Assembly (NCBI GenBank): GCA_016281335.1
Contig: JAEEIK010000148.1
Location: 1-39,943, forward strand
Direction: 5' to 3'
Source: Lachnospiraceae bacterium
Lineage (GTDB): Bacteria; Bacillota; Clostridia; Lachnospirales; Lachnospiraceae
DNA: 39,943 bases
The notes under the pieces are model-generated. The model was given only the letters and a program-made list of their open reading frames with translations. It was not told where the DNA came from and searched no databases. Every line of letters starts with the position of its first letter. The stretch's first letter is position 1. The translations under genes and the position numbers were made by a program. Below are positions 6,414 to 35,691 of the stretch, piece by piece.

Positions 6414-6428
6414 TACGGGGGCGGGATA

Positions 6429-8174: not shown

Positions 8175-8196
8175 AACAAGGAGGCAGGTATAGATT

Positions 8197-9459: not shown

Positions 9460-9538
9460 GTATATTTTTATGGTGCTTTTGCTATAGGTTTGCGTTGGAG
9501 GCTGTTAAATACTCCCATACAGGAAGAGGAAGATGATC

Positions 9539-9907: not shown

Positions 9908-10253
9908 GTATACCATCCTGTATGCCTGCATACTGCTCGTGGGCGTATTTATCAGTGCTGTATCACAGGTTTTATTAAAAAAAGAGGCTCAGGTCGTACA
10001 CAAAGGGAAAATACAGGAATACTTAAATCTACGGGTGATAATTGCCTATACTATGTTCGTCGGAACGACGCTTCTTTCTGTTCTGGCATATAAAGGGATC
10101 CCGCTTTCAATGGGACCGGTATTGGAAGCTACCAGTTATATTTATGTTACGGTATTTGGGGTTAAGATATTCCATGAGAAAGTGGGAAAAAGAAAGATCA
10201 TTGCGCTGATCCTTATTTTATCGGGAATAGTTGTTTATTCTTTATTCGGGTGA
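9900..10253 (+). CDS. Small four-helix SMR/DMT-type membrane protein (flippase half 2)
   Basis: 117 residues with four predicted helices and an EmrE-fold look: SQVLLKKEAQ after helix 1, GPVLEATSYIYV in helix 3 and HEKVGKRKIIALILILSG in the last hairpin. Partner of the gene just upstream; the two overlap by 8 nt (ATGGATAA), the arrangement expected for subunits made in equal amounts. The start is ATG 9900, preceded by AGGGGGGAA; an in-frame upstream start at 9843 lacks support and would bury the reading frame in the previous gene. Proposed role, by analogy to ArnE/ArnF: moving a polyprenyl-phosphate sugar across the membrane. Substrate unknown. Confidence 0.75.
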   Translation: MDKYTILYACILLVGVFISAVSQVLLKKEAQVVHKGKIQEYLNLRVIIAYTMFVGTTLLSVLAYKGIPLSMGPVLEATSYIYVTVFGVKIFHEKVGKRKIIALILILSGIVVYSLFG

Positions 10254-10270
10254 TACAAGGGGGAAACAAA

Positions 10271-12210: not shown

Positions 12211-12217
12211 TAATATC

Positions 12218-13523: not shown

Positions 13524-13952
13524 ATGAAAAAGAACAAAGGTTTTTCACTCGTAGAACTCATCATCGTTATCGCCATCATGGCAATCCTGGTTGGTGTTAT
13601 AGCTCCTCAGCTGATCAGATACATCGAGAAGGCTAACGTATCCAGCGACGTAACTACACTTGATTCCATCCGCAGCGCAGTTACTTACGCAGCTTCCGAT
13701 CCTGAGTTCGCAACCAGCACCGAGGCTCTTCCCGGAACAGGTACATATTCAAACCTTTCTGGTTCAATCCTTGGTAACATCGCTCACAATACTGTTGATC
13801 CTAACGGCTCATTCAAGTCAAAGGACATCAAGGGCGACAGCATCGGTGGTGTAACCGTAGCTATCAACGGTTCTACTTCAAAGGTTGAGGTTTCCTACGG
13901 CAGCTTCACAATCGAAGAGAACGGTACTGTTCATACTCCTGCACAGGACTAA
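13524..13952 (+). CDS. Type IV major pilin-like protein
   Basis: 142 residues. Class III leader MKKNKG followed by FSLVELIIVIAIMAILVGVI: cleavage by prepilin peptidase between G6 and F7 leaves mature F1 (N-methylated in the family) and the essential E5 (E11 of the precursor). The N-terminal helix is followed by a short, Ser/Thr/Gly-rich globular region without cysteines, so there is no disulphide D-region. The many surface Ser/Thr could accept O-glycans, although no defined site is visible. It has its own promoter, an AAAAGGAG site 8 nt before ATG 13524 and its own terminator. Codons are richer in C-ending forms (ATC, TAC, AAC) than its neighbours, consistent with high expression. Probably the main subunit for the PilTBC motor upstream. 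Confidence 0.92.
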   Translation: MKKNKGFSLVELIIVIAIMAILVGVIAPQLIRYIEKANVSSDVTTLDSIRSAVTYAASDPEFATSTEALPGTGTYSNLSGSILGNIAHNTVDPNGSFKSKDIKGDSIGGVTVAINGSTSKVEVSYGSFTIEENGTVHTPAQD

Positions 13953-14073: not shown

Positions 14074-16662
14074 ATGACAGAAACTCAATCCCGCATTAAA
14101 CGAACTCTGTATTTTGTGACGGCTGCGGTTTTACCGCTTATAATAGCCAGCTTATGTCTGTATCTGAGAGAGATGCTTCCAGGACAGGAGAATAAGCTTG
14201 TATATGGCGATTATATTCACGAATATCTGGCTTTTTTCAGACACTTCTGGGATGCTTTATTACATGGCAAAAGTCTGGAATACAGTTTTTCACTTGGAAT
14301 AGGATCGCCTACAATGGGGATGTATTCTATCTTTGCTTTCAGTCCGTTCAGTATCATTCCGTATATTATCAAGGATGTTACGCTGGCAGCATATATTTCC
14401 CTGATGTGCAAACTATCACTTGCCTCACTAGCGCTTATGTTTTTTTTGACTTATGATCTGAAGTGCAGAAGGGAAACGGGTTTACTCTTTTCTGTTTTTT
14501 ATTCTTTATCGTCTTATGTGCTGATTTATTATATTAATATTCATTTTTTGGATGTGTTTTATATTTTGCCCTTGCTTATTCATTTTCTCATTAAATTTGT
14601 TAAGGAACAGAAATATTTAGGGCTTATCCTACTTTATAGTTTCAGCTTTATCAATAATTTTTTTGAGGGATACTGTGTCGGCTTTTTTTCCTTTGTTTTA
14701 TATATACTTTTACTCTGGTATATGGGGATACGCGGGAACAGATTAAGGGAAAACATAAAGAAATATATACTGGCTGTGACGATAGCTGTTCTGTTTTCAC
14801 TGCCCGTAATACTGCCGGCTGTAATGTATGTGATACAGCATATGCCGGACGGTAGTGATTTTTCGGTCATACCGCTCAGAGCTTCCATATATACATTTAA
14901 TTCCTTATTGTTTGGCAGGAGGATCAGAAGCATATTTGATTCAATGCCGGCAGTTTATTGCGGCTGGCCGTCAATGTTGCTGACTGTATCTTTTTTCGTA
15001 GATAAGAATGATATAAAGAAAAAAATGCTGGCGGGAGTTCCGATAATGCTTCTTATAGTCTGCTGTTTCTGGCATCCTGCCTATTATTTCATGCATCTCT
15101 GCAATGAGCCGGACAGTTTTCCCTGGCGTTTTTCTTTTCTTTTGATCTTTATGTTTGTATGTACGGCAGCCTATCAGTACGATCATATGGAAAAAAAGCT
15201 TTTTTCAAAAGCAAATCTCTTACCCTTGCTTATAGTAGCGATCATAGTGGGAACAGCGTATTATCTTAACCGTGCTGAACTTATCGGTACTGATACTTTG
15301 CCTATGTTCCTTTTTATCATTAATATGGGCTTTGTTTTGCTTCATTGCCTGGGTGATAATAAGAGGATAATATTGTATTTTATTGCAATTCCAGAGCTTG
15401 TATGTGCCACGTATTTTCAGTTGCCATATTTGAATTCAGATAATGATCAGAATGAGATCAAAGAGGAGTTTAAGAGTATAGATAAGATTTTGGATATAAT
15501 TGCAGAAGATGAGTCTGAGTTTCACAGGACCTGTGTGTTTTCGGGAATGACACAAAATCAGGCCTTTATGTGTGATTATCCGGGCTTTAATTTTTTCTGC
15601 TCGTTTGACAACGGCAGATTGATAGATGCATTAAAACTCCTGGGTTTTGAAGCCAGACCACAGCAATATGATTATTACGGACATACGGAATTTACTAACA
15701 TGATTTTTGATGTGAAGTATATCGGATCCAATGTGGCAGGAAAACTGGTTGAAGATTCCCCGACACTGCCGCTGGCTTTTACCGTAACAGATGATATAAA
15801 AGATATTGAGCTCTCTGATGATCCGTTCAGGAACCATCAGACCCTGGCTGATGCAATGACATTCGAGGATAGTGTACTGTATGATTCCATAGAGGTTGAA
15901 ATGGGAACAACTGACGGGATGGAACTTGATGTTGATTATGAAAACGAAGAATATACATTCAGAAAGACCGGCGATGGCGGCCTAGGGGTCTGGTATATAA
16001 AAGATATTGAAAAGCAGCCGGCATATATGTTTGTTTCAACAGGAGTACGTACAGCCGGAGTTTTCGAACGCGAATATATAATGTCCGGATATCCTGTCAG
16101 AGCGGAAAAGCCGGTAGCAATGCCGATCATAAACAGTTTTTTTAAAATAGATAATAAGGATAAACCCGGAGTCGTTCTGAAAATGTATGGAGATATCGGG
16201 ACGGAAGTGAGTTTTAAGACTACTATAGCTAAATGCATAAATCTAGATGCTGTCGAAAGGATATATGAAGAACTGGCACCGGGTGGGATAAAGATAGACA
16301 GTTTCAGAGATGACAGGATTCAGGGCAGGGTTACAGCAGATGAGGAGCATACTGTATTGTTTTCATCAATACCTTATGATATAAACTGGCGTATAAAGAT
16401 AGACGGAAAAGAATATGAGACTTATGCGGTTTTCAACGGAGCATTTCTGGCCTGTGATATCACTCCGGGGGAACATGAGATAGAGTATATATATAAGGAC
16501 AGTTCGGTTACTATGGGAATGGCAGCCTTTGCAGTCGGATTTCTGTTGTTGATGATGAGTATATCAAAGGACCATGGAAAGAAGAAAGAGCAGGATCAAC
16601 TGATCTATGATGCGGTAACCGACTTGAGTGAGGATGAAGGAAAAGAAAACCTTGAAAGCTGA
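14074..16662 (+). CDS. YfhO-family GT-C membrane glycosyltransferase (pair B, copy 1)
   Basis: 862 residues with the same plan as the YfhO genes at the left edge: many membrane helices to about residue 450, a soluble domain, a last helix near 812-832 and an acidic cytoplasmic tail of ~30 residues. GDY sits at 45-47, and the loop reads FAFSPFSI where pair A has YGFSPFNL, so this is a distinct subfamily. The C-terminal block VLFSSIPYDINW...DGKEYETYAVFNGAFLACD is clearly YfhO. Inferred to glycosylate an outside target from a lipid-sugar. ATG 14074 with AAAGGA 10 nt upstream. It overlaps its tandem copy by up to 29 nt. Confidence 0.85.
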   Translation: MTETQSRIKRTLYFVTAAVLPLIIASLCLYLREMLPGQENKLVYGDYIHEYLAFFRHFWDALLHGKSLEYSFSLGIGSPTMGMYSIFAFSPFSIIPYIIKDVTLAAYISLMCKLSLASLALMFFLTYDLKCRRETGLLFSVFYSLSSYVLIYYINIHFLDVFYILPLLIHFLIKFVKEQKYLGLILLYSFSFINNFFEGYCVGFFSFVLYILLLWYMGIRGNRLRENIKKYILAVTIAVLFSLPVILPAVMYVIQHMPDGSDFSVIPLRASIYTFNSLLFGRRIRSIFDSMPAVYCGWPSMLLTVSFFVDKNDIKKKMLAGVPIMLLIVCCFWHPAYYFMHLCNEPDSFPWRFSFLLIFMFVCTAAYQYDHMEKKLFSKANLLPLLIVAIIVGTAYYLNRAELIGTDTLPMFLFIINMGFVLLHCLGDNKRIILYFIAIPELVCATYFQLPYLNSDNDQNEIKEEFKSIDKILDIIAEDESEFHRTCVFSGMTQNQAFMCDYPGFNFFCSFDNGRLIDALKLLGFEARPQQYDYYGHTEFTNMIFDVKYIGSNVAGKLVEDSPTLPLAFTVTDDIKDIELSDDPFRNHQTLADAMTFEDSVLYDSIEVEMGTTDGMELDVDYENEEYTFRKTGDGGLGVWYIKDIEKQPAYMFVSTGVRTAGVFEREYIMSGYPVRAEKPVAMPIINSFFKIDNKDKPGVVLKMYGDIGTEVSFKTTIAKCINLDAVERIYEELAPGGIKIDSFRDDRIQGRVTADEEHTVLFSSIPYDINWRIKIDGKEYETYAVFNGAFLACDITPGEHEIEYIYKDSSVTMGMAAFAVGFLLLMMSISKDHGKKKEQDQLIYDAVTDLSEDEGKENLES

Positions 16663-19219
16663 CAGTAAAATAAAAGAGCTTTCTTTTTGGGGAGCAGTAG
16701 CATTGAGCCCTGTAATTCTGGTTACTATAGGGCTTTATTTGAGAAATATGTTACCGGGACAACAAAAGATGCTGGTTTACGGGGATTATACCTGTGAATA
16801 TCTCCCTTTTTTCAGACATTTTTGGGATGCGGTAATACATGGACAGAGTCCGGAATACAGTTTTTCAATGGGTATGGGTTCGCCGATGCTGTCGATGTAT
16901 TCCATATTTGCTTTCAGTCCATTCAGTATTGTACCTTATCTGATAAAAGATGTGACACTTGCCGCATATATTACATGGATGGGGAAAACGGCCTTAACTG
17001 CCGCTTTCTTTGCATTTTTTCTTATATATGATCTGAAGAGCAGAAAAGAAACTGCTTTTATCTTTTCGCTTTTTTATTCATTGTCTTCATATATGCTTAT
17101 CTATTACAATAATATACATTTTATGGACATTCTTTATATATTGCCGCTTCTCATGCATTTCCTTGTAAGCTTTGTAAAAGAGAATAAGACCTTCGGACTT
17201 GTCATATGTTATACCTTCAGCTTTATCAATAATTTTTTTGTGGGATATTGTGCCGGATTCTTTTCTTTTCTGATATATATTCTTATGCTATGGTATTTTA
17301 ATGTAAGGGGCGACAGACTTAAACGGAATATAAAAAATTATTGTTTTGCCGTATTTACTTCTGTCTTACTTGCTATGCCGGTAGTATTACCGGCAGTGAT
17401 GTTCGTGGTACAGCATATGCCGGATGGCAGTGATTTTTCGGCTATACCGCTTCAATCTATCTCTTATATAGCCAATTCTATGATGTTCGGACGTAAAATA
17501 TGGGGAATATTTGATTCCATGCCGGCAGCATATTGCGGGTGGCCGGTGACGCTGCTGCTGATCTCCTTTTTTGCGGGTAAAACGGATAAACGTACAAAGC
17601 TGTTTGCTGCAATACCTGTAATACTCCTGCTTATCTGCTGTTTATGGCATCCGGCATATATTTTTATGCATTTGTTTAATGAACCGGACAGTTTTCCCTG
17701 GCGCTTTTCCTTTTTGCTGATATTTATATCCGTATGTACAGCTGCTTACCAGTATGATCATATGGATAAGAAGCTGCTTAGCAGATCACGGATCATATCG
17801 CTCATAATCGTAATTCTGTGCGTCGGAGTAGCATATTTCCTGCATCGCAATGAACTTGTATATAATGATATAATTCCGGCATATATCTTTTGGCTCAATA
17901 TCGGCTTTGTATTACTCCACTTTCTGGGTGATAATAAGAAAATGCTGCTGTATTCCCTGACTGTTTTGGAACTGACTTTTGCTGTGTATTTTCAGCTTCC
18001 GCAGACCCAGGCTGAAGGAAGGGTACAGCAGGATATAAAGGAAGAGGAAGCAAAACTTGATGTACTCACCGCAGACATTAAAAAAAGTGATAATGATTTT
18101 TACCGGACCAGTATTTTTGCACCCCGTTCGTTGAATTCCTCTTTATCATGTGATTATAATGGAATGGAATATTTCTGTTCTTTTGATAATACCAGGCTTA
18201 ATAATGCCTTAAGGCTTCTGGGTCTGCGTGCCAGGGAACAGCAGTATAACAATTTGGGTAATACCGAATTTACCAATATGATCTTTTCGGTGAAGTATAA
18301 CGGATCGATATATCTGGAAGGGCTATTTGAAAATGATCATGTATTACCGCTGGCTTTCTCGGTGACGGAAGATATTAAGAACATAAAAGTCACGGAAGAT
18401 CCGTTTGAAACCCAGCAGAATCTGGCAGATGCAATGACCGGAAATGACAGGATGATCTACGAACCTGTCCGTGTCGATGTGAAAACAAGCGGCGGTATAG
18501 AAATAGAGAATGATGCGGAAAATGACGGATATACTTTCGTAAAAACTGACGAAGAAGGTATGGGAAGCTGGTATACGGATGATGAAGAAGCTCAGCCGCT
18601 ATATATGTTCATTGATACAGGAGTCAGATCTTCAGGCATGTTTGACCAGGATAAGATAGTTTCGGGATATCCCGTCACTACCACAACAGCCATGTCGCTC
18701 CCGTCAATTTACAGATTTTATAAAAATGATGAAAACTCAGATCCTTCGGTATATCTGCTCATGAGGGGGGATATCGGTTCGAGGGTAACAATAAAGAAAA
18801 CCATTGTAAGAAGACTTTTAACTGATTCGATACAGGGTATATATGAGGAGCTGGCTCCGCTTGGATTAAAAATCAGGAGTGTCCGAGATAACAGAATACA
18901 AGGAAGCGTTACAGCAGATGAGAAACATTCCGTGCTTTTTTCGTCCATTCCTTATGATATTAACTGGCGTATCATGATAGACGGAAAAGAATGTGAGACA
19001 TACGCAGTATTTAACGGGGCTTTTCTGGCATGTGATATATCCCCGGGAGAACATGAAGTGGAATATATATACAAAGACAGCGCACTGACGATGGGGCTCG
19101 GAGCTTTTGCATCAGGTCTGCTGCTTTTGCTTATACAATTAAAAAACAACGGAAAGAAAAAAGAAGGAAGTAATGAAGCGTTGGTTTATGATGATGGAGG
19201 CGAAGAGAAGGAATGCTGA
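16634..19219 (+). CDS. YfhO-family GT-C membrane glycosyltransferase (pair B, copy 2)
   Basis: 861 residues from ATG 16634 and closely similar to the preceding gene throughout: GDY at 50-52, FAFSPFSI, HMPDGSDFS, NEPDSFPWRFSF, and the VLFSSIPYDINW ending, so a recent tandem duplication is likely. The soluble C-terminal domain differs more than the membrane part, as expected if the two copies act on different acceptors. The start is uncertain: GTG 16628 and ATG 16634 lack well-spaced binding sites, while TTG 16652 has AAGGA 10 nt upstream. The 3' end overlaps the next gene by 7 nt (ATGCTGA). Confidence 0.83.
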   Translation: MKEKKTLKADSKIKELSFWGAVALSPVILVTIGLYLRNMLPGQQKMLVYGDYTCEYLPFFRHFWDAVIHGQSPEYSFSMGMGSPMLSMYSIFAFSPFSIVPYLIKDVTLAAYITWMGKTALTAAFFAFFLIYDLKSRKETAFIFSLFYSLSSYMLIYYNNIHFMDILYILPLLMHFLVSFVKENKTFGLVICYTFSFINNFFVGYCAGFFSFLIYILMLWYFNVRGDRLKRNIKNYCFAVFTSVLLAMPVVLPAVMFVVQHMPDGSDFSAIPLQSISYIANSMMFGRKIWGIFDSMPAAYCGWPVTLLLISFFAGKTDKRTKLFAAIPVILLLICCLWHPAYIFMHLFNEPDSFPWRFSFLLIFISVCTAAYQYDHMDKKLLSRSRIISLIIVILCVGVAYFLHRNELVYNDIIPAYIFWLNIGFVLLHFLGDNKKMLLYSLTVLELTFAVYFQLPQTQAEGRVQQDIKEEEAKLDVLTADIKKSDNDFYRTSIFAPRSLNSSLSCDYNGMEYFCSFDNTRLNNALRLLGLRAREQQYNNLGNTEFTNMIFSVKYNGSIYLEGLFENDHVLPLAFSVTEDIKNIKVTEDPFETQQNLADAMTGNDRMIYEPVRVDVKTSGGIEIENDAENDGYTFVKTDEEGMGSWYTDDEEAQPLYMFIDTGVRSSGMFDQDKIVSGYPVTTTTAMSLPSIYRFYKNDENSDPSVYLLMRGDIGSRVTIKKTIVRRLLTDSIQGIYEELAPLGLKIRSVRDNRIQGSVTADEKHSVLFSSIPYDINWRIMIDGKECETYAVFNGAFLACDISPGEHEVEYIYKDSALTMGLGAFASGLLLLLIQLKNNGKKKEGSNEALVYDDGGEEKEC

Positions 19220-20922
19220 AAAAAATCTTTTCGTCTGATGCAGGAAGATATGGTATAATAGCCGGCTTGATCGGAGCGGTCATGTTTTTTTTACTCTTTG
19301 GTTATAAGCCGCTTATAGTGACAAATGTTGCTTTCCTATATGATTCAAAAGACAGAGTATTGGCTATGTCCGATACTCCTTATCATCAGTTCGGATTGGA
19401 CTACTTTCTGAGATCACCCTGGAGCTTTCCGCCCGGAAACAATCCGGATTATCCCTATCCTTATGGCTCTTCTATACTGATAAGCGATTCGCTGCCTCTG
19501 TTTGCTTTTATAGCTAAGATTTTTGCCGGAATTCTGCCGGATTACTTTCAGTATTTCGGTATATGGACTCTTTTATGCTTTATACTTCAGGGAACATGCG
19601 CAGCCCTGGTTATGAGGAGACTGGGAGTAAAAATGCTGCACGCCATGTGTGCGGTGCCGCTCTTTGTCATCAACGTGCCGCTGCTGTTCCGCTGTTTCCA
19701 TCATTGTGCCTTGTGCGGACAATGGCTTATACTGCTGGCTGTTTTAGGTTATCTGTATAACGATGGATCAACAGTAAAGAAAAAATGCATTTTTTGGACT
19801 GTGCTCTGTGTGCTCAGTGTACTGATACAGGGATATTTTTTGGTAATGTGCGGCGCTATCATGACTGCGGCGTTCATAAATGATGTGATACATGACCGGA
19901 AAAAGATAATAGGGGATTCTTTTGTGTTTGTTACTGCGTTGATCTCCTCGGTATTTACGTACTTCCTTTGCGGAGGTTTTCTGGAGGATACGGAGCTGTC
20001 AGGAATAATGTTCGGACAGTTTTCCTTTGATCTTTCGTTTCTTCTGGACCCTTATGTTTTTTCTTCTTTCTTTTCGGGAGAACGTAAAGCTGATCTTAAT
20101 ACAGAGCACGATGCATATCTTGGGGTGGGCCTTATACTGCTTTATCTTATATCCATGGCGGTATTGCTGCTTAAGAGAAAAGAGCTGATCGAATATATAA
20201 AGAAAAACAGTGCGAAGAAGATAATAATGGCGCTGGTGTGTATTTGCTTTTTTGTGGTGTCGCTGAGTCCCCAGATAAAGTTCTTCGGAAAGACTGTCGT
20301 AGATCTGATGCCTGTAATACCCGAAAAGATACTTGCTTATATGTCGATCTTCAGATCAAGCGCGAGGTTTTTCTGGCCGGTCTGGTATATAATGCTGCTG
20401 TGCTCCGTAAGGATACTGTCAGGGGCATTTAAGGACCGGAGTACGGCAGTACTTGGACTGATCTTTGTTATATGTGCAGTGATACAGCTTTTTGAACTTC
20501 CGGCTTTGACAATAGAGACAAGAGCAGATGAGATAGTGAAGGGATATCCCTCCTCTCTGGAAAATGCTTTCGGAGACTGTTTTAACGAAAAGGCTAAACA
20601 TGTATCGGTAGTTACTAATCTTCTCGGTAATATGGAAGATGCAAATGTTTTTGCCGTTCATCACGGACTTACAGTCAATCGTGCAAATTTAGGCAGAGGA
20701 AAAGGAATGTCGGTAGATGAAGATATAGAAAAACTGGTTAACGGGCAGGCGGATCATGAAACCATCTACCTTTTAAGGCTGGTAGAAGCTGATGATATAC
20801 CTATAAAGTGGCTTCCGGAGGAATTTGTTCTGTATTATGACAATGAGAAGTATATGTGTTTTTTTGACAGGGCATTGCTTAAATCCGAGCCGGACTGTCA
20901 AAAGCTTGAGCTGAACGAATGA
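19213..20922 (+). CDS. DUF6311-like polytopic membrane protein, probable GT-C glycosyltransferase
   Basis: 569 residues, about ten hydrophobic segments up to residue ~430 and a short soluble C-terminal part. The first outside loop has S53-D54-T55-P56-Y57-H followed by FGLDYFLRSPWSFPPG and later YGSSILISDSLPL, the pattern of DUF6311 proteins, which share the GT-C arrangement of an acidic residue after helix 1. A sugar-transfer role is likely but unproven; acceptor and donor are unknown. Translationally coupled to the upstream YfhO by a 7-nt overlap, with GAGAAGGA before ATG 19213. Confidence 0.7.
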   Translation: MLKKIFSSDAGRYGIIAGLIGAVMFFLLFGYKPLIVTNVAFLYDSKDRVLAMSDTPYHQFGLDYFLRSPWSFPPGNNPDYPYPYGSSILISDSLPLFAFIAKIFAGILPDYFQYFGIWTLLCFILQGTCAALVMRRLGVKMLHAMCAVPLFVINVPLLFRCFHHCALCGQWLILLAVLGYLYNDGSTVKKKCIFWTVLCVLSVLIQGYFLVMCGAIMTAAFINDVIHDRKKIIGDSFVFVTALISSVFTYFLCGGFLEDTELSGIMFGQFSFDLSFLLDPYVFSSFFSGERKADLNTEHDAYLGVGLILLYLISMAVLLLKRKELIEYIKKNSAKKIIMALVCICFFVVSLSPQIKFFGKTVVDLMPVIPEKILAYMSIFRSSARFFWPVWYIMLLCSVRILSGAFKDRSTAVLGLIFVICAVIQLFELPALTIETRADEIVKGYPSSLENAFGDCFNEKAKHVSVVTNLLGNMEDANVFAVHHGLTVNRANLGRGKGMSVDEDIEKLVNGQADHETIYLLRLVEADDIPIKWLPEEFVLYYDNEKYMCFFDRALLKSEPDCQKLELNE

Positions 20923-20942
20923 TATGGTATTGGAGGACAAAG

Positions 20943-22178
20943 ATGATACTATACATCGATCCCGGAACGGGAAGCATGCTGTTTACGGTATTGCTGGGAC
21001 TGGTAACAACGGTATATTTCTTTCTGCAGAAACTGGTACTGAGGATAAAGGTGTATCTGTCGGGAGGCAGGAAGGGCAAAGTTGATACAAATATGATGCC
21101 CTTTGTTATCTTCTCTGATGATAAGAGGTATTGGGAATACTTTAAAGGTGTATGCAGGATATTTGAGGAGAAAGGAAGGGAGCTTGTTTACTGGACCTGT
21201 TCCAAGGATGATCCGGCCCTGAATGAAGATTATAAATATGTGAAGACCGAATATATCGGAAATATAAATGCAGCGAGTGTACGGCTCAACAGGATGAAAG
21301 CGGGGATATGCCTGTCAACGACGCCGGGACTGGACGTATATCAGTGGAAGCGGTCAAAGGATACCAGATGGTATGTCCATATACTGCATACCGCCGGGGA
21401 TGCCAGGGTATACAGGATGTTTGGCATGGATTTCTATGACGCGGTGCTGGTGACCGGAGAGCATCAGATAGAGGAGATACGCCAGCTTGAAGAAGTGAGG
21501 AAGCAGGCACCCAAAGAAATAAGCGTAGCCGGTGAACCCCATATCGACAATCTCTATGAACGTTTCAAAAATGAAGGAATAAGCGGGAAAAAGGGCTTTA
21601 CCGTATTGCTTGCGCCTTCGTGGGGAAGCAGCGGGATACTTGCAAGATTCGGAGAAAAGATAATCAGGGCTCTTATAGCTACGGGATACCATATAATCAT
21701 CAGACCGCATCCCCAGTCCATGCAATCCGAAAAAGAGATGATGGACAGGCTGATGACACAGTTTCCTGATGATGAGCAGATTGAGTGGAATTTTGATAAT
21801 GATAACTATTCTGCGCTCTGCAGAGCGGATATTATGATCTCGGATTTCTCCGGAGTGATCTGGGATTACATGTTCATCTTTGAACGACCGGTGATCTATG
21901 CCGACGTGGAGATAGATGACGGACCTTACGATATCTACTGGGTGAATGACAAACGCTGGCCCATAAAAGTACTGGAAAAGAACGGTATCAGGCTGGAGGA
22001 GGAGAAGTTCGGGCAGCTCAAAGAGATCATCGACGAGGCAGTAAATTCCGAAAGTATAAAAAAGACTATTGAAGAGGCAAGGAGCGAGGCCTGGGCCAAT
22101 CCCGGACATGCAGCGGAAAAGATGGCAGCTTATCTCTTCAGCAAATATGATGAACTGGAGTGTACGGAAACCGCCTGA
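20943..22178 (+). CDS. CDP-glycerol glycerophosphotransferase-family protein (TagB/TagF-like)
   Basis: 411 residues. One N-terminal membrane segment (about 10-30) and a GT-B-like domain with the family signatures: HILHTAGD (146-153), SWGSSG (226-231), RPHPQS (254-259) and DFSGVIWDYMF (from 301). Characterised members transfer glycerol phosphate or ribitol phosphate from a CDP-activated donor during teichoic acid synthesis. No CDP-glycerol supply gene is adjacent, but the next gene carries cytidylyltransferase-type domains fused to a phosphonate enzyme, so a CMP-phosphonate donor is plausible. ATG 20943 is chosen because GGAGG (20932-20936) is 6 nt upstream; a start at 20919 would overlap the previous gene with no site. 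Confidence 0.82.
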   Translation: MILYIDPGTGSMLFTVLLGLVTTVYFFLQKLVLRIKVYLSGGRKGKVDTNMMPFVIFSDDKRYWEYFKGVCRIFEEKGRELVYWTCSKDDPALNEDYKYVKTEYIGNINAASVRLNRMKAGICLSTTPGLDVYQWKRSKDTRWYVHILHTAGDARVYRMFGMDFYDAVLVTGEHQIEEIRQLEEVRKQAPKEISVAGEPHIDNLYERFKNEGISGKKGFTVLLAPSWGSSGILARFGEKIIRALIATGYHIIIRPHPQSMQSEKEMMDRLMTQFPDDEQIEWNFDNDNYSALCRADIMISDFSGVIWDYMFIFERPVIYADVEIDDGPYDIYWVNDKRWPIKVLEKNGIRLEEEKFGQLKEIIDEAVNSESIKKTIEEARSEAWANPGHAAEKMAAYLFSKYDELECTETA

Positions 22179-22201
22179 CAATATGAGAGGAGTTTATCGA
22201 T

Positions 22202-24211
22202 ATGAAAGCCCTTATACTTAATTCCGGAATGGGAACCCGTATGGGAGTGCTTACTTCGGAACATCCGAAGTGTATGACGGAAGTATCCGCGAGAGAGACT
22301 ATATTGTCCAGACAATTACAGCTTTTGTGTGATGCTGGGATCAGAGAAGTGGTGATGACGACAGGAGCTTTTGATGCTGTATTGGTGAATTATTGCCACA
22401 GTCTGGATATGCCTATACATTTTACTTTTGTTAATAATCCGCTTTATAAGGATACTAATTATATATACAGCATCTATTGCGCAAGAGAGCTGCTGGATGA
22501 TGATATTGTCCTGATGCACGGCGATCTTGTTTTTGAGGCCGAGGTACTTGACAGAGTTGTATCAAGCGAAGTTTCGTGCATGACCGTGTCTTCAACTCTG
22601 CCGCTGCCTGAAAAGGATTTCAAGGCACAGATAAAAGACGGTAAAGTAGTCAGAGTCGGTGTTGATATCTTTAATGATGCGGTTGAGGCTCAGCCCTTAT
22701 ATAAACTGATGAGAGCTGACTGGAAGGTATGGCTGGATAAGATAAAAGAGTTTTGCGAAAGCGGAAATACAAAGGTCTACGCGGAAAATGCACTGAACGA
22801 ATTGGAGGGGGCAGCGAATATCAGCGCTCTTGATGTGGAAGAGCTTTTATGCGCGGAGATCGATGATGCTTCGGATCTGGCAGTGGTCACTAACAAGCTG
22901 AAAGAGATAGAGAATCGTCTGGTTTATATGTGTTTTTCCTCTGACATCATACACGGAGGCCATATATCGATAATCAGGAAAGCCTGCAAGCTCGGAAAAC
23001 TGATGATCGGTGTGCTTTCTGATGAAGCCGTGGCTTCATACAAGCGTCTGCCTCTTGTGCCTGAGTCTGAGCGTAAGATGATGTTTGAGAATCTGTCCGG
23101 AGTCCATAAAGTTGTTGAGCAGAAAAGCCTGAGTTACAAGGAGAATATAGAAAAATACAGACCGGCTATAGTTGTTCACGGGGATGACTGGTGCAGCGGT
23201 TTTCAGAAACCGATACGAGATGAAGTGGTGGCAGTGCTGGCAGGCTACGGCGGTAAACTCGTAGAGTTTCCCTACAGCAAAGATGATAAATATGCGGATA
23301 TTGAAGCCCGCACCCGGGCGGATCTGGCTATGCCCGATATACGAAGAGGCAGACTGAAAAGGGTACTGGATGCAAAAGGGCTGATCACAGCTATGGAAGC
23401 GCATGACGGCCTGACAGGCCTGATAGTGGAAAATACCGTTGTACATCAGAATGGCGGCGCCCACCAGTTTGATGCGATGTGGGTGAGTTCACTCTGTGAT
23501 TCCACGGCAAAGGGTAAGCCGGATATAGAGCTGGTGGATATGACCTCACGTTTCCGGACTATAGAGGATATCACGGAAGTAACCACCAAGCCGATTATCT
23601 TTGACGGTGATACAGGCGGAAGGACCGAGCATTTCATATATACGGTAAGGAGTCTGGAGCGCCTCGGGGTATCAATGGTGATCATAGAGGATAAGACCGG
23701 GCTTAAAAAGAATTCATTATTCGGGACTGAGGTCGAACAGACGCAGGACAGTATAGAGCATTTCTGCAAGAAAATAAAGGCAGGAAAGAGGGCAAGCAGG
23801 ACAAAGGAATTCATGATCTGCGCCAGGATAGAAAGCCTGATACTGGAGCAGGGAATGGAGGATGCGCTCGCTCGCGCTTTCGCTTATGTTGAAGCGGGAG
23901 CCGATGCCATAATGATACACAGCAGGAAGAAAGATCCTTCGGAGATCAAAACGTTTATCAGTAAGTTCAGAGAGCAGGATAAACAGACTCCTTTAGTACT
24001 GGTGCCTACTTCATTTAATTCCGTTAAAGAAGAGGAATGGAAGGAACTGGGAGCGAACATCATCATATACGCAAATCAGCTTATGCGGGCGCAGGTACCT
24101 GCTATGCAGAAGGCGGCTGAGACGATACTTGAAAACCACAGAGCAGAAGAGTGTGATGCAATGCTGATGCCGTTCAAGGATATAATACGTTTGATACCGG
24201 TGGAGGAATGA
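22202..24211 (+). CDS. pepM: Fusion: PntC-like NTP transferase / HxGH cytidylyltransferase-like / phosphoenolpyruvate mutase
   Basis: 669 residues in three parts. Residues 1-~235 are a LicC/PntC-type nucleotidyltransferase (NSGMGTRMG at 7-15, PKCM at 22-25, HGDLVF). Residues ~236-375 are a TagD/GCT-type domain with H251-G-G-H254. Residues ~381-669 are PEP mutase with FDGDTGG, the diagnostic E496-D497-K498...N504-S505 loop, and ARIESLI. PEP mutase makes phosphonopyruvate from PEP, the entry step to almost all natural phosphonates. PntC-type enzymes activate phosphonates as CMP esters for transfer to glycans or lipids. So one protein may both start the pathway and activate its product. AGAGGAG lies ~9 nt before ATG 22202. 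The catalytic state of the middle domain is unclear; such a domain occurs on many PEP mutases. Confidence 0.92.
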   Translation: MKALILNSGMGTRMGVLTSEHPKCMTEVSARETILSRQLQLLCDAGIREVVMTTGAFDAVLVNYCHSLDMPIHFTFVNNPLYKDTNYIYSIYCARELLDDDIVLMHGDLVFEAEVLDRVVSSEVSCMTVSSTLPLPEKDFKAQIKDGKVVRVGVDIFNDAVEAQPLYKLMRADWKVWLDKIKEFCESGNTKVYAENALNELEGAANISALDVEELLCAEIDDASDLAVVTNKLKEIENRLVYMCFSSDIIHGGHISIIRKACKLGKLMIGVLSDEAVASYKRLPLVPESERKMMFENLSGVHKVVEQKSLSYKENIEKYRPAIVVHGDDWCSGFQKPIRDEVVAVLAGYGGKLVEFPYSKDDKYADIEARTRADLAMPDIRRGRLKRVLDAKGLITAMEAHDGLTGLIVENTVVHQNGGAHQFDAMWVSSLCDSTAKGKPDIELVDMTSRFRTIEDITEVTTKPIIFDGDTGGRTEHFIYTVRSLERLGVSMVIIEDKTGLKKNSLFGTEVEQTQDSIEHFCKKIKAGKRASRTKEFMICARIESLILEQGMEDALARAFAYVEAGADAIMIHSRKKDPSEIKTFISKFREQDKQTPLVLVPTSFNSVKEEEWKELGANIIIYANQLMRAQVPAMQKAAETILENHRAEECDAMLMPFKDIIRLIPVEE

Positions 24212-24212
24212 G

Positions 24213-25310
24213 ATGATAATCACACCGGCAGATAATTATCTCGCATTGGATCAGTGGCTTAGTGATAAGAAAAAGCTATTGCTGGTCTGCGATGATTCCA
24301 TAAGGTTTCAGAAAAAGCTGAATAAGAAACTGGAAGAAATAAGGATACCCTTTGTATCCTTCTCTGATTTTACGCCCAATCCTCTTTATGAATCCGTGGT
24401 AAAAGGAGTAGAGCTGATACGTAAAGAAGAGTGTGACTGTATCATGGCTGTCGGAGGCGGATCAGCTATTGACGTGGCTAAATGTATAAAGAAGTATATG
24501 AATATGAGCGGAGATGGTGCTGACGGAAAATGGCTTAAGGAAAACGCGCCATCTTCAGTAATACCCTTTCTGGCTATGCCCACAACTGCAGGGACCGGAT
24601 CGGAAGCTACAAGATATGCTGTCATATATTACAAAGGCGAGAAACAGAGTATCACTGATGAGGGTTTTATACCGGATACTGTGCTCATGGATCCCGAAGC
24701 CCTAAAGACTCTTCCGCTTTATCAGAAAAAGGCAACAATGATGGATGCCCTCTGCCATGCAATTGAATCCTGCTGGTCTGTTAACAGTACGGATGAAAGC
24801 AGCGAATATGCATTGAATGCCATAAAGGCGGTCATCAAAAACATGGATGCTTACCTGGAAAATTCTGAAGAGGGAAATAAACAGATGCTTATGGCTGCAC
24901 ATATCGCAGGTAAGGCTATAAACATAAGTCAGACTACCGCAGGACATGCGATGTGTTACAAGATCACTTCCATATTCGGCTGTGCTCACGGGCATGCGGC
25001 GGTCCTCTGCGACAGGATACTGTATCCTTGGATGATAAAGAATGACAGACTCTGCATTGACAAAAGGGGAGCCGGTCATTTGAATAAAATGCTTAATGAG
25101 ATCGGACTGGCGCTTGGCGGTAAGGATGCAGAGGAAGGGGCAGAAATACTTGCCGGGGTTTTTGCAAAACTGGAACTGGAAATACCTGAGGCATCCGGGG
25201 AACAGATGGAGGAACTGGTAAAAGGAGTAAATCCGGTAAGGCTTAAGAATCATCCCATACCGCTTGATGAGGAAACGATAAGGCAGCTGTACAGAGAGAT
25301 TTTGAGGTGA
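24213..25310 (+). CDS. Iron-containing alcohol dehydrogenase, probable phosphonoacetaldehyde reductase
   Basis: 365 residues, group III Fe-ADH. NAD(P) motif GGGSAID at 81-87; PTTAGTGSE; metal ligands D178, H182, H245 and H259, with the family spacing intact, so the enzyme should be active. Between PEP mutase and phosphonopyruvate decarboxylase genes it most likely reduces phosphonoacetaldehyde to 2-hydroxyethylphosphonate, as PhpC does in phosphinothricin and related pathways. The alternative AEP branch would need an aminotransferase, which is absent from the window. GGAGG at 24202-24206 precedes ATG 24213 by 6 nt; the gap to pepM is 1 nt. Confidence 0.85.
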   Translation: MIITPADNYLALDQWLSDKKKLLLVCDDSIRFQKKLNKKLEEIRIPFVSFSDFTPNPLYESVVKGVELIRKEECDCIMAVGGGSAIDVAKCIKKYMNMSGDGADGKWLKENAPSSVIPFLAMPTTAGTGSEATRYAVIYYKGEKQSITDEGFIPDTVLMDPEALKTLPLYQKKATMMDALCHAIESCWSVNSTDESSEYALNAIKAVIKNMDAYLENSEEGNKQMLMAAHIAGKAINISQTTAGHAMCYKITSIFGCAHGHAAVLCDRILYPWMIKNDRLCIDKRGAGHLNKMLNEIGLALGGKDAEEGAEILAGVFAKLELEIPEASGEQMEELVKGVNPVRLKNHPIPLDEETIRQLYREILR

Positions 25311-25313
25311 GAC

Positions 25314-26432
25314 ATGAATGTAAAAAGATTTGCTGATATATTAGGGGCTGATTTTTATACGGGAGTGCCCGACAGCCAGCTGAAAGCTCTGTGTAATTTT
25401 CTGATGGAAAAATACGGTATTGATCCGGAACATCATATAATAGCCGCAAATGAAGGTAACTGCACCGCTATTGCCGCAGGTTACCATCTGGCTACCGGGA
25501 AAGTGCCTGTAGTTTATATGCAGAACAGCGGAGAGGGAAATATCATCAATCCCCTTGCCTCACTTCTGAATGAAAAAGTCTACGCCATACCTGTCATATT
25601 TATAATAGGCTGGAGGGGAGAACCGGGGATACATGATGAACCCCAGCATATATATCAGGGTGAGGTGACCGTAAAATTATTGGAAGATATGGGTGTAAAC
25701 AGCTTTATCATCGGAAAAGAAACTGCCGATGAGGAAGTTGCGGCTGCCATGGATGCGTTCAGAAAGGAACTTGATGAGGGAAGGGACGTGGCATTTATCA
25801 TCCGAAAGGGTGCGCTCAGTGATGCTCCGAAGCCTGAGTATAAGAATGATAATAAGATGCTGCGTGAGGAGATAATAAGACATATAGTTAATGCAGCCGG
25901 AGAAGATCCGATAGTTTCGACTACAGGCAAGGCAAGTCGTGAGCTCTTTGAAATAAGAGAAGCAAACGGACAGGAACATAAATATGATTTTCTGACTGTG
26001 GGATCTATGGGACACAGTTCCTCCATAGCTCTGGGGGTGGCGATAAATAAACCCGGAAAGCGTATCTGGTGTATAGACGGAGACGGGGCAGCCCTAATGC
26101 ATATGGGGGCAATGGCAGTGATCGGAGCAAATAAACCGGAGAACCTGATCCATGTTGTTATAAATAACGGCGCTCATGAAACTGTGGGCGGCATGCCGAC
26201 TGTTGCGGGAAGCATCAATCTGGTGAAAATAGCAGAGGCCTGCGGTTATCCGCATGCAGTCTGCGCAGAGGATTTCGAAACTCTTGATAAGGAACTGGAG
26301 AAAGCCCGTAACAGAGCGGAATTAAGCTTTATAGAAGTGAAGTGTGCTATTGGTGCCCGTGAAGATCTGGGAAGACCTACAACTTCGGCAAGTGAAAACA
26401 AAGAAAACTTTATGGAGTTTCTGAAGGGGTGA
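25314..26432 (+). CDS. aepY: Phosphonopyruvate decarboxylase
   Basis: 372 residues, the usual length of this thiamine diphosphate enzyme. The cofactor-activating glutamate is E47 (AANEGNCTAIAAGY). GWRGEPGIHDEPQH is a hallmark stretch, and the diphosphate/Mg motif is G256-D257-G258 ending in VVINNGAHETVGGMPT. It decarboxylates phosphonopyruvate to phosphonoacetaldehyde, the irreversible step that pulls the unfavourable PEP mutase reaction forward. It starts 3 nt after the dehydrogenase stop, with GAGG 6 nt before ATG 25314. The trio pepM-dehydrogenase-decarboxylase is complete for 2-hydroxyethylphosphonate. Confidence 0.94.
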   Translation: MNVKRFADILGADFYTGVPDSQLKALCNFLMEKYGIDPEHHIIAANEGNCTAIAAGYHLATGKVPVVYMQNSGEGNIINPLASLLNEKVYAIPVIFIIGWRGEPGIHDEPQHIYQGEVTVKLLEDMGVNSFIIGKETADEEVAAAMDAFRKELDEGRDVAFIIRKGALSDAPKPEYKNDNKMLREEIIRHIVNAAGEDPIVSTTGKASRELFEIREANGQEHKYDFLTVGSMGHSSSIALGVAINKPGKRIWCIDGDGAALMHMGAMAVIGANKPENLIHVVINNGAHETVGGMPTVAGSINLVKIAEACGYPHAVCAEDFETLDKELEKARNRAELSFIEVKCAIGAREDLGRPTTSASENKENFMEFLKG

Positions 26433-31936: not shown

Positions 31937-32521
31937 ATGAGAAAAGCGGAAGTAAAGAGGACTACTAAGGAAACGGATATAGAGCTTAAGCTTGATCTGG
32001 ACGGCAGGGGCGTAAGCGTGATCGATACGGGCATTGGTTTCTTTGATCATATGCTCAGCGGCTTTACAAAGCACGGTTTCTTTGATATGACGCTCAAGTG
32101 CAAAGGCGATCTGAACGTGGACGGTCATCATACCGTTGAAGACTGCGGCATAGTGCTGGGAGAAGCGCTTAAACAGGCAGTCGGAGACAAGGCGGGCATG
32201 GTAAGGTACGGATACTTTATACTGCCGATGGATGATGCGCTGGTACTCTGTGCGGTTGATTTCTGCGGCAGGCCCTATTTTAATTATGATCTCAAGTTTG
32301 ATACGGAATTCTGCGGTGATTATGCAACGGAACTTACCAAAGAATTCTTCTATGCGGTAAGTTATTCCGCAGGCATCAATCTGCACATAAAACAGTTGGA
32401 CGGTGTTAATTCACACCACATAACAGAGGCCGCTTTCAAAGCTTTCGGCAAGGCAGTGGACATGGCTACGAGAATGGATGAAAGAGTCAGCGGAGTGCTC
32501 AGCACCAAGGGGAGTCTGTAA
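31937..32521 (+). CDS. hisB: Imidazoleglycerol-phosphate dehydratase HisB
   Basis: 194 residues, the monofunctional bacterial form (no phosphatase domain). Two repeated metal motifs are present, HHTVEDCGI and [11 protein letters not shown], plus GFFDHML at the start. It dehydrates imidazoleglycerol phosphate using Mn. AAAGGAGACAG precedes ATG 31937. The 30-nt gap after hisD contains GGGGGGAAGCCTT, resembling the end of the palindromic repeat. Its stop shares one base with the next start (TAATG). Confidence 0.96.
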
Positions 32522-33825
32522 TGGGAAGAAAGAGTTTATTTGCGGCAATATATCTGTATAAGGGCTGTGCGGTAAAGAGCAGGATAGACAGGAACGTGAT
32601 AAGCAACAAGCCCGAAGAACTGGCTGCTTCTTATTCGGATCACTGCGCTGACGGCATGATAGTATTTGATCTTTCGGAAAATGACGAGGATCATGACAAG
32701 GCCATAGGAGTGCTCAAAAAGATAGTAGCCGCTTCCGAAGCGCCGGTATGGGGCTGCGGAAATATAAAGCGCTTCGAAGATGTAAAGAAGATACTTTATA
32801 CAGGCTGTGCCAAAGCAGTGCTCAACTACGGTAAGGACAGCAATGTGGAACTGACTGCCGAGGTATCAAAGCGTTTCGGTAAGGAGAAGATAGCCGCTTC
32901 AGTAGCGGAGCTTAAGGAAGCGGAAGAACACTCGGGCGTGATAGAAGAATATGTGAGCTCGCTGGTGCTCGTTAATGAACGGGATGAATATGATGCCGCG
33001 CTGTTGAAGACCATGCTTTCTTCTTCCGTAGCCACTCCGATGATGGTACCGATGCCTGACGGAGTGCCGGCACAGATAGCAGCCGTGCTGTCAAAAGACA
33101 GGGTAGAGGGTGTATTCGGGCCTGTGGTCAATTCCAATGCGGACCAGATCAATACGATCAAGGCATTCTGTTCCGAGAGCGGCATAGATGTAGCGGGCTT
33201 TGATGCGAAACTTAAGTTTGAAGAATTAAAGACCAACAGTGACGGTCTGGTGCCCGTGATAGTACAGGATTACAGGAACAAGGAAGTACTGATGCTTGCC
33301 TACATGAATGAAGAGGCTTTTAACAATACGATACGGACCGGCCGCATGACTTATTATTCAAGGAGCAGGAAGGAACAATGGCTTAAAGGAGAGACCAGCG
33401 GACATTTCCAGTATGTGAAAGCGCTCTATGCGGACTGTGATAAAGATACGATCCTTGCAAAGGTATCCCAGGTAGGCGCGGCCTGCCATACGGGTTCCCG
33501 CAGCTGTTTCTTTAATGAGATAATCAAAAAAGAGTATCAGGATACGGATCCTTCAAAGGTGTTCCAGGATGTATACGAGGTGATACTGGACAGAAAGGCC
33601 AATCCCAAGGAAGGTTCGTATACCAATTATCTCTTTGACAAAGGCATAGACAAGATACTGAAAAAAGTCGGAGAGGAATGTACGGAGATAGTAATAGCTG
33701 CCAAGAATCCGGATAAGGAAGAGATAAAATACGAGATATCGGATTTCCTTTATCATGTGATGGTGCTGATGGCTGAAAAGGGCGTGACCTGGGAAGACAT
33801 AACAAGAGAGCTGGCGAGCAGGTAA
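32521..33825 (+). CDS. hisI: HisI-HisE fusion with degenerate HisA/HisF-like N-terminal domain
   Basis: 434 residues, about twice a normal HisIE. Residues ~233-340 are phosphoribosyl-AMP cyclohydrolase: Mg site D305-C-D307-K-D309 and zinc cysteines C322 and C329 are intact. Residues ~345-434 are phosphoribosyl-ATP pyrophosphatase ([28 protein letters not shown]). Residues 1-~229 resemble a HisA/HisF barrel ([45 protein letters not shown]), but the catalytic aspartate in HisF's LDVKDG is Tyr here, so the domain is probably not a HisA or HisF enzyme. Steps 2 and 3 of the pathway are supplied. hisC, hisH, hisA and hisF are not in the window. Confidence 0.9.
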
Positions 33826-33828
33826 AAT

Positions 33829-35691
33829 ATGGATGTGAGCGAAAGAAAAACGGCTTTGTCCCATGAGATACTGATGAAGGCGGAAAAACCCGCGAGATAT
33901 ACCGGCGGGGAGCTTAACACTGTGATAAAAGAGGCGGATCGTGTAAAGGTCCGCTTCTGTTTATGCTTTCCGGATGTATATGAGATAGGCATGTCACATC
34001 TGGGACTGCAGATACTCTACGGACTCATGAATTCATATGAGGATGTATGGTGCGAGAGGCTGTTCTCACCCTGGACCGATATGGACAGGATCATGAGGGA
34101 TGAGAAGATAGAACTCTTTGCCCTTGAAAGTCAGGAGCCTGTAAAAGACTTTGATTTTCTGGGCTTTACTCTCCAGTATGAGATGTGCTATGCGAACATA
34201 CTGCAGATACTGGAACTGTCCGGACTGAAATTCCTTGCAAAAGACAGAAAGGAAGATGATCCGATAGTCATAGGCGGCGGTCCCTGTACCTATAATCCGG
34301 AACCGCTGGCGGATTTCTTTGATATCTTTTACATAGGTGAAGGCGAGACAAAGTACAGGGAGCTCTTTGATCTGTATGAGTCATCTTCATCCAAAGCTGA
34401 ATTCTTAAGAAATGCTTCGCATATAGAGGGCATGTATGTTCCCTCGCTTTATGAAGTCGATTATAACGATGACGGAACGCTGAAATATATGCGGCCTAAA
34501 TATGAAGATGTGCCCGTAAAAGTGCGTAAGACAATCGTTAATGATCTGAATGAATGTTTTTATCCGGAAAAGCCGGTAGTGCCGTTTATCCGCGCTGCCC
34601 AGGACAGAGCCGTGCTGGAAGTGATGCGCGGCTGTATAAGAGGCTGCAGGTTCTGCCAGGCAGGACAGATATACAAACCTGTTCGGGAGAGAAGCGTTGA
34701 GACTCTGAAAAAATATGCGGATGCCATACTTGCTAACACGGGCTACGAAGAGATATCCTTAAGCTCGCTGAGTACCAGTGATTATACGGGCTTGCAGGAA
34801 TTGCTGGAATATCTTATAGATGAGTGTAACAGGAAAAAGATAAACATATCACTGCCGTCCCTTCGTATTGATGCTTTTTCTCTTGATGTGATGAATAAGG
34901 TGCAGGACGTTAAAAAGAACAGCCTGACCTTTGCTCCGGAGGCGGGAAGCCAGCGGATGCGAAATGTCATCAATAAGGGCCTGACCGAAGAAGATATACT
35001 GAGAGGTTCAAAGATGGCCTTTGAAGGCGGATGGAATAAGGTGAAGCTGTACTTTATGCTGGGACTGCCTTTTGAGGAAAAAGAGGATATTGCAGCCATA
35101 GGTGAGCTTTGTGAGAAGATAACGGAACTTTACTTTGATACGGTGCCCAAGGAAAAAAGACAGGGAAGAGTAGAAGTAAGCGCCAGTTCTTCTTTCTTCG
35201 TACCCAAGCCTTTTACGGCTTTCCAGTATGCGCCGATGGATACAATGGAGAGTTTCCTGGAAAAAGCGTCTTTCTGCAAAAAGAATGTAAGGAGCATGCA
35301 CAATCAGAAGAGCATACGCTACCAGTATCATGACGCTAAGACTACGATAATTGAGGGAATATTCGCCAGAGGGGACCGCAGGCTTTCGGCGGCTATAATA
35401 AATGCATATAAGGCAGGAGCGCTGTACGATGCATGGACCGAGAGTTTCTCTTATGAACGATGGATGAAAGCTTTTGAAGATGCAGGTATAGCTTACGGGA
35501 ATTATATTTTCAGGGAAAGAACCGAAGATGAGCTGTTCCCCTGGGATTTCATAGACTGCGGCGTTAGCAAGAAGTGGTTTTATAAAGAATGGCAAAATGC
35601 AAAAGAGGGCAAAGTCACGCAGAACTGCCGGGCGGGCTGCAGCGGCTGCGGCTGCGGGACTTTCCAATGCGGCATATGTGTTTCGAGGTAA
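33829..35691 (+). CDS. B12-binding-type radical SAM protein, TIGR03960 family
   Basis: 620 residues. The N-terminal part resembles a cobalamin-binding fold (VRFCLCFPDVYEIGMSHLGLQILY). The radical SAM cluster is C269-x3-C273-x2-C276 (RGCIRGCRFCQAG), followed by ISLSSLSTSDYTGL and LRIDAFS. The C terminus is a cysteine cluster, C-x3-C-x2-C-x-C-x4-C-x2-C, probably another Fe-S or metal site. Reaction unknown; members regularly precede the TIGR03936 protein and RNase E/G, as here, suggesting a shared RNA- or ribosome-linked job. It starts 3 nt after hisIE with only a weak site. Confidence 0.92.
   Translation: MDVSERKTALSHEILMKAEKPARYTGGELNTVIKEADRVKVRFCLCFPDVYEIGMSHLGLQILYGLMNSYEDVWCERLFSPWTDMDRIMRDEKIELFALESQEPVKDFDFLGFTLQYEMCYANILQILELSGLKFLAKDRKEDDPIVIGGGPCTYNPEPLADFFDIFYIGEGETKYRELFDLYESSSSKAEFLRNASHIEGMYVPSLYEVDYNDDGTLKYMRPKYEDVPVKVRKTIVNDLNECFYPEKPVVPFIRAAQDRAVLEVMRGCIRGCRFCQAGQIYKPVRERSVETLKKYADAILANTGYEEISLSSLSTSDYTGLQELLEYLIDECNRKKINISLPSLRIDAFSLDVMNKVQDVKKNSLTFAPEAGSQRMRNVINKGLTEEDILRGSKMAFEGGWNKVKLYFMLGLPFEEKEDIAAIGELCEKITELYFDTVPKEKRQGRVEVSASSSFFVPKPFTAFQYAPMDTMESFLEKASFCKKNVRSMHNQKSIRYQYHDAKTTIIEGIFARGDRRLSAAIINAYKAGALYDAWTESFSYERWMKAFEDAGIAYGNYIFRERTEDELFPWDFIDCGVSKKWFYKEWQNAKEGKVTQNCRAGCSGCGCGTFQCGICVSR

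Follow-up and report, generated by a model that had tools for sequence, protein, structure and literature searches.

A Lachnospiraceae gene module predicted to make CMP-activated 2-hydroxyethylphosphonate for surface-glycan decoration

We analyzed a 39,943-nucleotide stretch of DNA from a Lachnospiraceae bacterium (assembly GCA_016281335.1, contig JAEEIK010000148.1; hereafter the window), taken from a genome of 3.23 Mb that is 92.9% complete (G000), and we focus here on four tightly packed genes on its + strand, which encode, in order, a PF04464 transferase, a phosphoenolpyruvate (PEP) mutase fusion, an iron-dependent alcohol dehydrogenase (Fe-ADH), and a phosphonopyruvate decarboxylase. Our reading, to which we assign a probability of roughly 0.72, is that this module makes 2-hydroxyethylphosphonate (HEP), a rare carbon-phosphorus compound, activated with cytidine monophosphate (CMP-HEP) for the decoration of a surface glycan, and that it belongs to a group of head-group modules that can be exchanged for one another. 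In the proposed pathway, the mutase would convert PEP to phosphonopyruvate, the decarboxylase would convert this to phosphonoacetaldehyde, and the Fe-ADH would reduce the aldehyde to HEP, which the N-terminal LicC/PntC-type domain of the fusion, with His106 replacing the acid that lies near the amine of 2-aminoethylphosphonate (AEP) in PntC, would couple to CMP. The upstream PF04464 transferase, or a LicD protein of the same genome, would then attach HEP to a polymer, either a glycan or one resembling teichoic acid. The family to which each module protein belongs is given by its sequence, as listed below; reduction to HEP, activation, and transfer we infer from the way the genes occur together, from homology, and from a single position in the active site.

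20919-22178, + strand: PF04464 (TagF-like) transferase with an N-terminal membrane segment (46.8 bits, cut-off 22.1)
22202-24211, + strand: mutase triple fusion (LicC/PntC-like nucleotidyltransferase, Fom1-type cytidylyltransferase, PEP mutase)
22202-22909, + strand: fusion domain 1, LicC/PntC-like nucleotidyltransferase (residues 1-236; His106 codon at 22517-22519)
22910-23317, + strand: fusion domain 2, Fom1-type HxGH cytidylyltransferase (PF01467; residues about 237-372; match to 5x3d at E 9.9e-37)
23348-24205, + strand: fusion domain 3, PEP mutase (residues 383-668; TIGR02320 402 bits, cut-off 319.6)
24213-25310, + strand: Fe-ADH, proposed phosphonoacetaldehyde reductase giving HEP (PF00465 123.6 bits, cut-off 31.3)
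25314-26432, + strand: phosphonopyruvate decarboxylase (TIGR03297 473.7 bits, cut-off 312.5)

The mutase carries the motif EDKTGLKKNS (23687-23716), which fits the form EDKX5NS given for Ppm in Rice 2019 (PMC6697681). A sequence-only reading of this DNA had already recognized the mutase by this loop, in agreement with the profile score, and had described the mutase, Fe-ADH, and decarboxylase genes as consecutive, which the coordinates bear out (22202-26432, all +, in the actual order mutase, Fe-ADH, decarboxylase). It also correctly placed a CDP-polyol-type transferase before the mutase, with a start at 20943 that is the second in-frame ATG and an alternative start, the conserved YIDPGTGS segment lying downstream of it. 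The PntC-like domain that it saw fused to the mutase is indeed present, but it overlooked the Fom1-type cytidylyltransferase domain in between, which rules out a plain PntC-mutase fusion. We confirm as well that the Fe-ADH retains D178, H182, H245, and H259, which we take from the Fe-ADH family to be the four metal ligands.

No aminotransferase was found in the module in a Pfam run on the window proteins, as the sequence-only reading had noted, and no AEP transaminase passes the cut-off of TIGR02326 or TIGR03301 in the G000 genome, whose 92.9% completeness leaves a small gap. The choice of the HEP branch over the AEP branch, earlier drawn from this one locus, gains support from a comparison of genomes with triple and two-domain fusions. 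In a sample of 299 Lachnospiraceae genomes, 35 have a match in the mutase-fusion search; 11 carry the triple fusion (G089, where the frame has an insertion, and ten others that match over the full length), and 19 carry a two-domain cytidylyltransferase-mutase fusion. An AEP transaminase over the TIGR03301 cut-off is present in 0/11 triple-fusion genomes versus 13/18 two-domain genomes, whereas an Fe-ADH at E 1e-60 is present in 10/11 of the former and 0/18 of the latter. The nineteenth two-domain genome, G283, has a separate N-terminal-type enzyme, an Fe-ADH, and no transaminase. Even at E 1e-8, no Fe-ADH was found around the two-domain fusions (up to 20 kb) except at locus L048.

A wider set of 90 distinct triple loci was drawn from three sources, the family loci, Segatella copri, and a scan of named genomes, leaving out two repeat family loci (L101, L130) and one interrupted fusion (L100); from 532 confirmed relatives, the scan kept the best 80, all of which match the query from residue 1 to at least residue 666. 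Most carriers are Clostridia from gut or rumen, with Segatella copri in addition. Of these loci, 78/90 have an Fe-ADH, 75/90 a decarboxylase, and 5/90 a class V transaminase-type gene. These 78 loci speak against the Fe-ADH being a chance neighbor, and in all of them (78/78) it lies on the same strand as the fusion; its stop-to-stop frame begins a median of 10 bases before the end of the fusion frame. In Segatella copri, a polysaccharide cluster contains, in a row, the mutase fusion, the decarboxylase, the Fe-ADH, and a PF04464 gene that is more distantly related.

The N-terminal domain provides the second line of evidence. The fusion has a fold match to PntC, in a list filled by the first and third fusion domains, so that the Fom1-type domain is not among the entries and nothing follows for it from this comparison. 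The PntC motif GXG(T/S)RX4-8PK occurs in the window as GMGTRMGVLTSEHPK, and its residues R13 and K23 are present in 92/92 rows of the triple-fusion alignment (which include the two repeated loci). Together, fold match and intact motif support the CMP activation proposed in the sequence-only reading. In Tde-PntC, Glu104 lies, with Glu196 and a water molecule, within hydrogen-bonding reach of the AEP amine (Rice 2019, PMC6697681). The HGD of the window (residues 106-108) aligns opposite ESD of Tde-PntC and DAD of LicC, and His106, Gly107, and Asp108 are each identical in 92/92 rows. The window enzyme thus has His106 where an AEP-type PntC has the Glu104 acid, and is therefore not filed as an AEP-type PntC. 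K141 and E195 are also invariant in the triple rows, and their equivalence to PntC Lys153 and Glu196 is a guess.

Within the family sample, the residue at this position follows the neighboring gene: 13 loci combine His with Fe-ADH (G046 counted twice) and 11 combine Glu with a transaminase, with none for His with transaminase or for Glu with Fe-ADH (Fisher 4e-7, a value that counts loci, not evolutionary events). Glu is found in 11/12 transaminase loci, the twelfth, L063, having no nucleotidyltransferase found; the residue table omits both L063 and L049, which have no nucleotidyltransferase of the searched types nearby, and L049 is scored as transaminase-free at the 250-bit limit, though one over the cut-off adjoins its fusion. 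The His-type enzyme also pairs with Fe-ADH when unfused (L048, L197, L198), L197 and L198 being sets in other families of the phylum, and L067 has a His-type enzyme-Fe-ADH fusion beside a lone mutase. Elsewhere, the enzymes linked to CobD-like proteins (L151, L156) have Glu and one linked to a choline kinase (L157) has Ser. We propose, from these alignments, a residue code with His for HEP and Glu for primary amines, in which choline types would be less regular (Asp in LicC, Ser in L157).

Several observations weigh against the HEP assignment. The His/Glu split follows deep clades, such that the loci are not independent: in the mutase tree, the triples group in a single clade whose sister is L048, away from the transaminase loci. 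The other arrangements described above (the L067 fusion and the unfused L197 and L198) do lend some independence to the His/Fe-ADH pairing. Furthermore, 12/90 triple loci lack an Fe-ADH by clustering, and a nearby contig end plainly accounts for just two of them (L094, L126, within 410 bases). Four triple loci, each with His106 retained, have an AEP-transaminase gene adjoining or near the fusion: it is PhnW-like at L079 and L131 (the short L131 frame misses the TIGR02326 cut-off but passes NF010006), and AepZ-like, beside an Fe-ADH, at L109 and L116. PhnW together with PhpC is described as a route from AEP to HEP (PMC9381506), which could explain PhnW at L079 and L131. These four loci also speak for a different product, namely that the module makes AEP by way of an unlinked aminotransferase outside the known families, with another role for the Fe-ADH, as do the status of AEP as the usual surface phosphonate (Rice 2019, PMC6697681) and the CobD-like pyridoxal phosphate (PLP) enzyme that is fused to a nucleotidyltransferase elsewhere in G000 (L151). 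We consider this quite improbable, given that no AEP transaminase passes the cut-off in G000 or in the 11 triple-fusion genomes of the family, that the Fe-ADH is conserved downstream of the fusion, and that His replaces the amine-contacting Glu.

The remaining points against production of HEP by this module concern individual proteins. At L068, a His-type enzyme occurs without an Fe-ADH; there (L068:6979-8856, - strand), the nucleotidyltransferase carries a fused rhomboid/rhombosortase-like domain and has a mutase and a decarboxylase as neighbors, with no Fe-ADH or transaminase seen. Of the 19 standalone LicC-like enzymes in the loci retrieved, four (L061, L071, L121, L122) have Ser or Cys instead of Glu, none of them belonging to the 11 transaminase-linked enzymes. 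Gln occupies ligand position 182 in 6/84 Fe-ADH relatives, no NCBIfam equivalog over its cut-off names the window Fe-ADH, and same-clade Fe-ADHs occur in four genomes with no mutase match in the family search. Finally, the transferase subfamily occurs in 15/299 family genomes, 9/15 of which have no mutase match.

With respect to the Fe-ADH itself, TIGR03405 (PsrA) scores the window protein at 133.6 bits, below its cut-off of 423.7, and the Segatella homologue is labelled phosphonoacetaldehyde reductase in its record. A phosphonate-only clade is ruled out by the four relatives in genomes with no mutase match. A midpoint-rooted FastTree tree that includes 25 general Fe-ADHs has at least two Fe-ADH lineages pairing with the His-type enzyme, those of L197, L198, and L201 forming a separate lineage; the L201 Fe-ADH adjoins a mutase. 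At L134, a triple locus that has no Fe-ADH, a short-chain dehydrogenase (L134:10977-11753) directly follows the fusion and might be a substitute reductase.

The fusion contains a second candidate for head-group activation in its middle domain, whose best solved-structure match is the cytidylyltransferase domain of Fom1 (5x3d, E 9.9e-37, motif HGGH), in an alignment that covers the domain up to residue 360, short of the further CTP-binding residues. If this domain made CMP-HEP, as the HEP cytidylyltransferase Fom1 does according to Rice 2019 (PMC6697681), the N-terminal nucleotidyltransferase would activate some other group and the protein would supply two activated groups. The HxGH motif, intact in 91/92 triple rows, fits this possibility, which we regard as unlikely although not remote: the middle domain is also fused to the mutase in AEP-transaminase loci and, unlike the N-terminal domain, does not track the head group, and in Segatella copri (L037:12001-14010) it has degenerated to NSAH with the rest of the module kept and the other two fusion domains conserved. 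As HEP-type and AEP-type loci alike have the middle domain, and as its motif is degenerate in Segatella, we assign head-group activation to the N-terminal domain. The middle domain may be a second CMP-HEP-forming site, redundant, structural, or a leftover.

For the transferase, a sequence search against solved structures returned nothing at E 0.01, and dedication of the subfamily to phosphonates is ruled out by its occurrence away from mutase genes beside other modules. The sequence-only reading had described a self-contained route from PEP to a phosphonylated polymer; candidate genes for the steps from PEP to HEP are present, but the transferase subfamily is not phosphonate-specific. Among six subfamily loci away from the mutase, L151 and L156 have a CobD-like/nucleotidyltransferase fusion nearby, and at L157 one gene lies between a choline-kinase/nucleotidyltransferase fusion and the subfamily transferase; at L158, L159, and L160, our queries matched no such fusion beside the transferase. 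The L151 locus (L151:5265-10970) lies in the same genome as the window (G000, contig C75). There, a fusion of a CobD-like PLP enzyme with a LicC-type nucleotidyltransferase is followed by a 60KD_IMP-type membrane protein and the second PF04464 transferase of the genome; the locus is probably a second head-group module, of ethanolamine or aminopropanol type.

Relatives of the transferase thus occur next to or close to modules of the HEP, AEP, CobD-like, and choline-kinase kinds; on our reading, the exchangeable modules found with this transferase family include AEP-type and probably also ethanolamine- and choline-type ones. A broader proposal, which we hold tentatively and at somewhat less than even odds, is that bacterial surfaces are decorated by a single transferase family, PF04464 (or LicD), working with plug-in modules, each of which synthesizes a small phosphorus head group of its own and activates it with CMP (HEP, AEP, a CobD-type aminoalkyl phosphate, or phosphocholine), that one nucleotidyltransferase position reports the head group, and that congeneric species differ by module exchange, with HEP in the species of the window and AEP in G004. 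G004 and G000 belong to one genus and carry AEP-type (L062:1494-7305) and HEP-type (window 20919-26432) modules, respectively, beside homologous transferases. Large YidC-like 60KD_IMP membrane proteins, some with a sulfatase or PF04464 domain, also recur beside phosphonate and other head-group modules, as in the following cases:

L053:3305-6058: 60KD_IMP-type protein
L044:13307-16045: 60KD_IMP-type protein
L142:13274-16069: 60KD_IMP-type protein
L051:12516-14660: 60KD_IMP-type protein

The identity of the transferring enzyme can also be questioned, in that HEP could be activated here and transferred by a LicD protein encoded elsewhere in the genome, leaving the PF04464 neighbor to use another donor. 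Four LicD matches over the cut-off do occur elsewhere in G000, and LicD is the commonest extra family near the triple fusions (27/90 loci, versus 13/90 for PF04464). We nevertheless judge this the less probable arrangement, and a rather unlikely one, since the PF04464 gene directly precedes the fusion in the window, the only other PF04464 match in G000 adjoins a different nucleotidyltransferase fusion, and PF04464-like genes flank the unfused versions at L197 (a weak match) and L198.

Transfer of HEP to a surface glycan, the destination already named in the sequence-only reading, is inferred from genomic context, which in the window consists of the PF04464 gene and the following genes upstream of it, the four reading frames overlapping one another:

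14074-16662, + strand: YfhO-family membrane protein (Pfam)
16628-19219, + strand: YfhO-family membrane protein (Pfam)
19213-20922, + strand: DUF6311 protein (Pfam)

In relatives, the neighbors are LicD, PF04464, glycosyltransferases, flippases, and sugar epimerases. HEP is, on the other hand, an intermediate common to several phosphonate pathways (Shao 2008, per its title), and a mutase/decarboxylase/reductase cluster of a gut archaeon has been read as possibly antibiotic-making (PMC10035134), such that HEP or CMP-HEP might here be an intermediate of an antibiotic-like small-molecule phosphonate instead of a surface group. This we find very improbable in view of the neighbors in relatives and of the window itself, where no tailoring enzyme of such pathways was recognized among the 30 proteins run against Pfam; a radical SAM protein of the Radical_SAM_N2 type (33829-35691), which lies beyond the histidine genes, was in our judgement not taken for Fom3.

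Elsewhere in the window, two EamA half-transporters, a family 2 glycosyltransferase, an epimerase, and an ATP-grasp protein (9533-13360) lie upstream of the YfhO genes and possibly supply them with a lipid-linked sugar. Type IV pilus-type genes (two T2SSE ATPases, T2SSF, and an N-methylation-motif protein; 5352-9408 and 13524-13952) are interleaved with the glycan genes, and one protein (32521-33825) within a histidine operon combines His_biosynth, PRA-CH, and PRA-PH domains. The GC content of the module (0.44-0.47) is not distinct from the rest of the window, and a scan for promoters and terminators was uninformative (31 promoter-like sites versus 34.9 expected, and 13 terminator-like sites versus 10.4 expected).

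Several known systems come close to the module. Rice 2019 (PMC6697681) describes pnt phosphonyl-tailoring clusters with PntC in Treponema denticola and Atopobium rimae, from which the present module differs in having an Fe-ADH instead of an AEP transaminase, His106 instead of Glu104, and an extra Fom1-type domain. As in Fom1 of fosfomycin biosynthesis, stated there to form CMP-HEP, an HxGH cytidylyltransferase is fused N-terminally to the PEP mutase; unlike in Fom1, a PntC-type third domain stands in front, no other fosfomycin enzyme was recognized in the window, and the context is that of a surface glycan. The same paper counts PF12804-PF01467-Ppm triple fusions, with the same domain families in one protein as here, as 42/1485 Ppm proteins, and its available part gives them no function, Fe-ADH link, or head-group assignment; no title on the triple fusion was among those listed in literature searches. 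The Lic phosphocholine pathway (Rice 2019, PMC6697681) likewise moves a CMP-activated small phosphorus head group to a glycan, whereas here the head group would come from PEP via a C-P bond and carry a neutral hydroxyl in place of choline. HEP esterified to polysaccharide is itself known chemistry, in other organisms. The phosphonoglycans of Glycomyces and Stackebrandtia are reportedly HEP-bearing polysaccharides. Such polysaccharides are also described from marine dissolved organic matter in PMC9381506, the available part of which describes no enzymes for their HEP activation or transfer.

Surface phosphonates are considered the main use of bacterial phosphonate genes while being chemically little known, and PntC-type enzymes are expected to activate varied phosphonates (Rice 2019, PMC6697681). 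The present analysis proposes a specific, testable product, CMP-HEP, for the triple fusion, which is common among Clostridia of the gut and rumen, and points to a candidate specificity residue and to Segatella copri DSM 18205 as a carrier strain. The gene arrangements suggest that surface decoration can be swapped by the exchange of small gene modules; were the broader plug-in proposal correct, the chemistry of many unseen surface phosphonates would become readable from sequence. If the module does make CMP-HEP for surface glycans, the mammalian gut microbiota would carry HEP-decorated glycans as a hidden trait; these would hold phosphorus in a stable form and might present a surface group of relevance to immunity.

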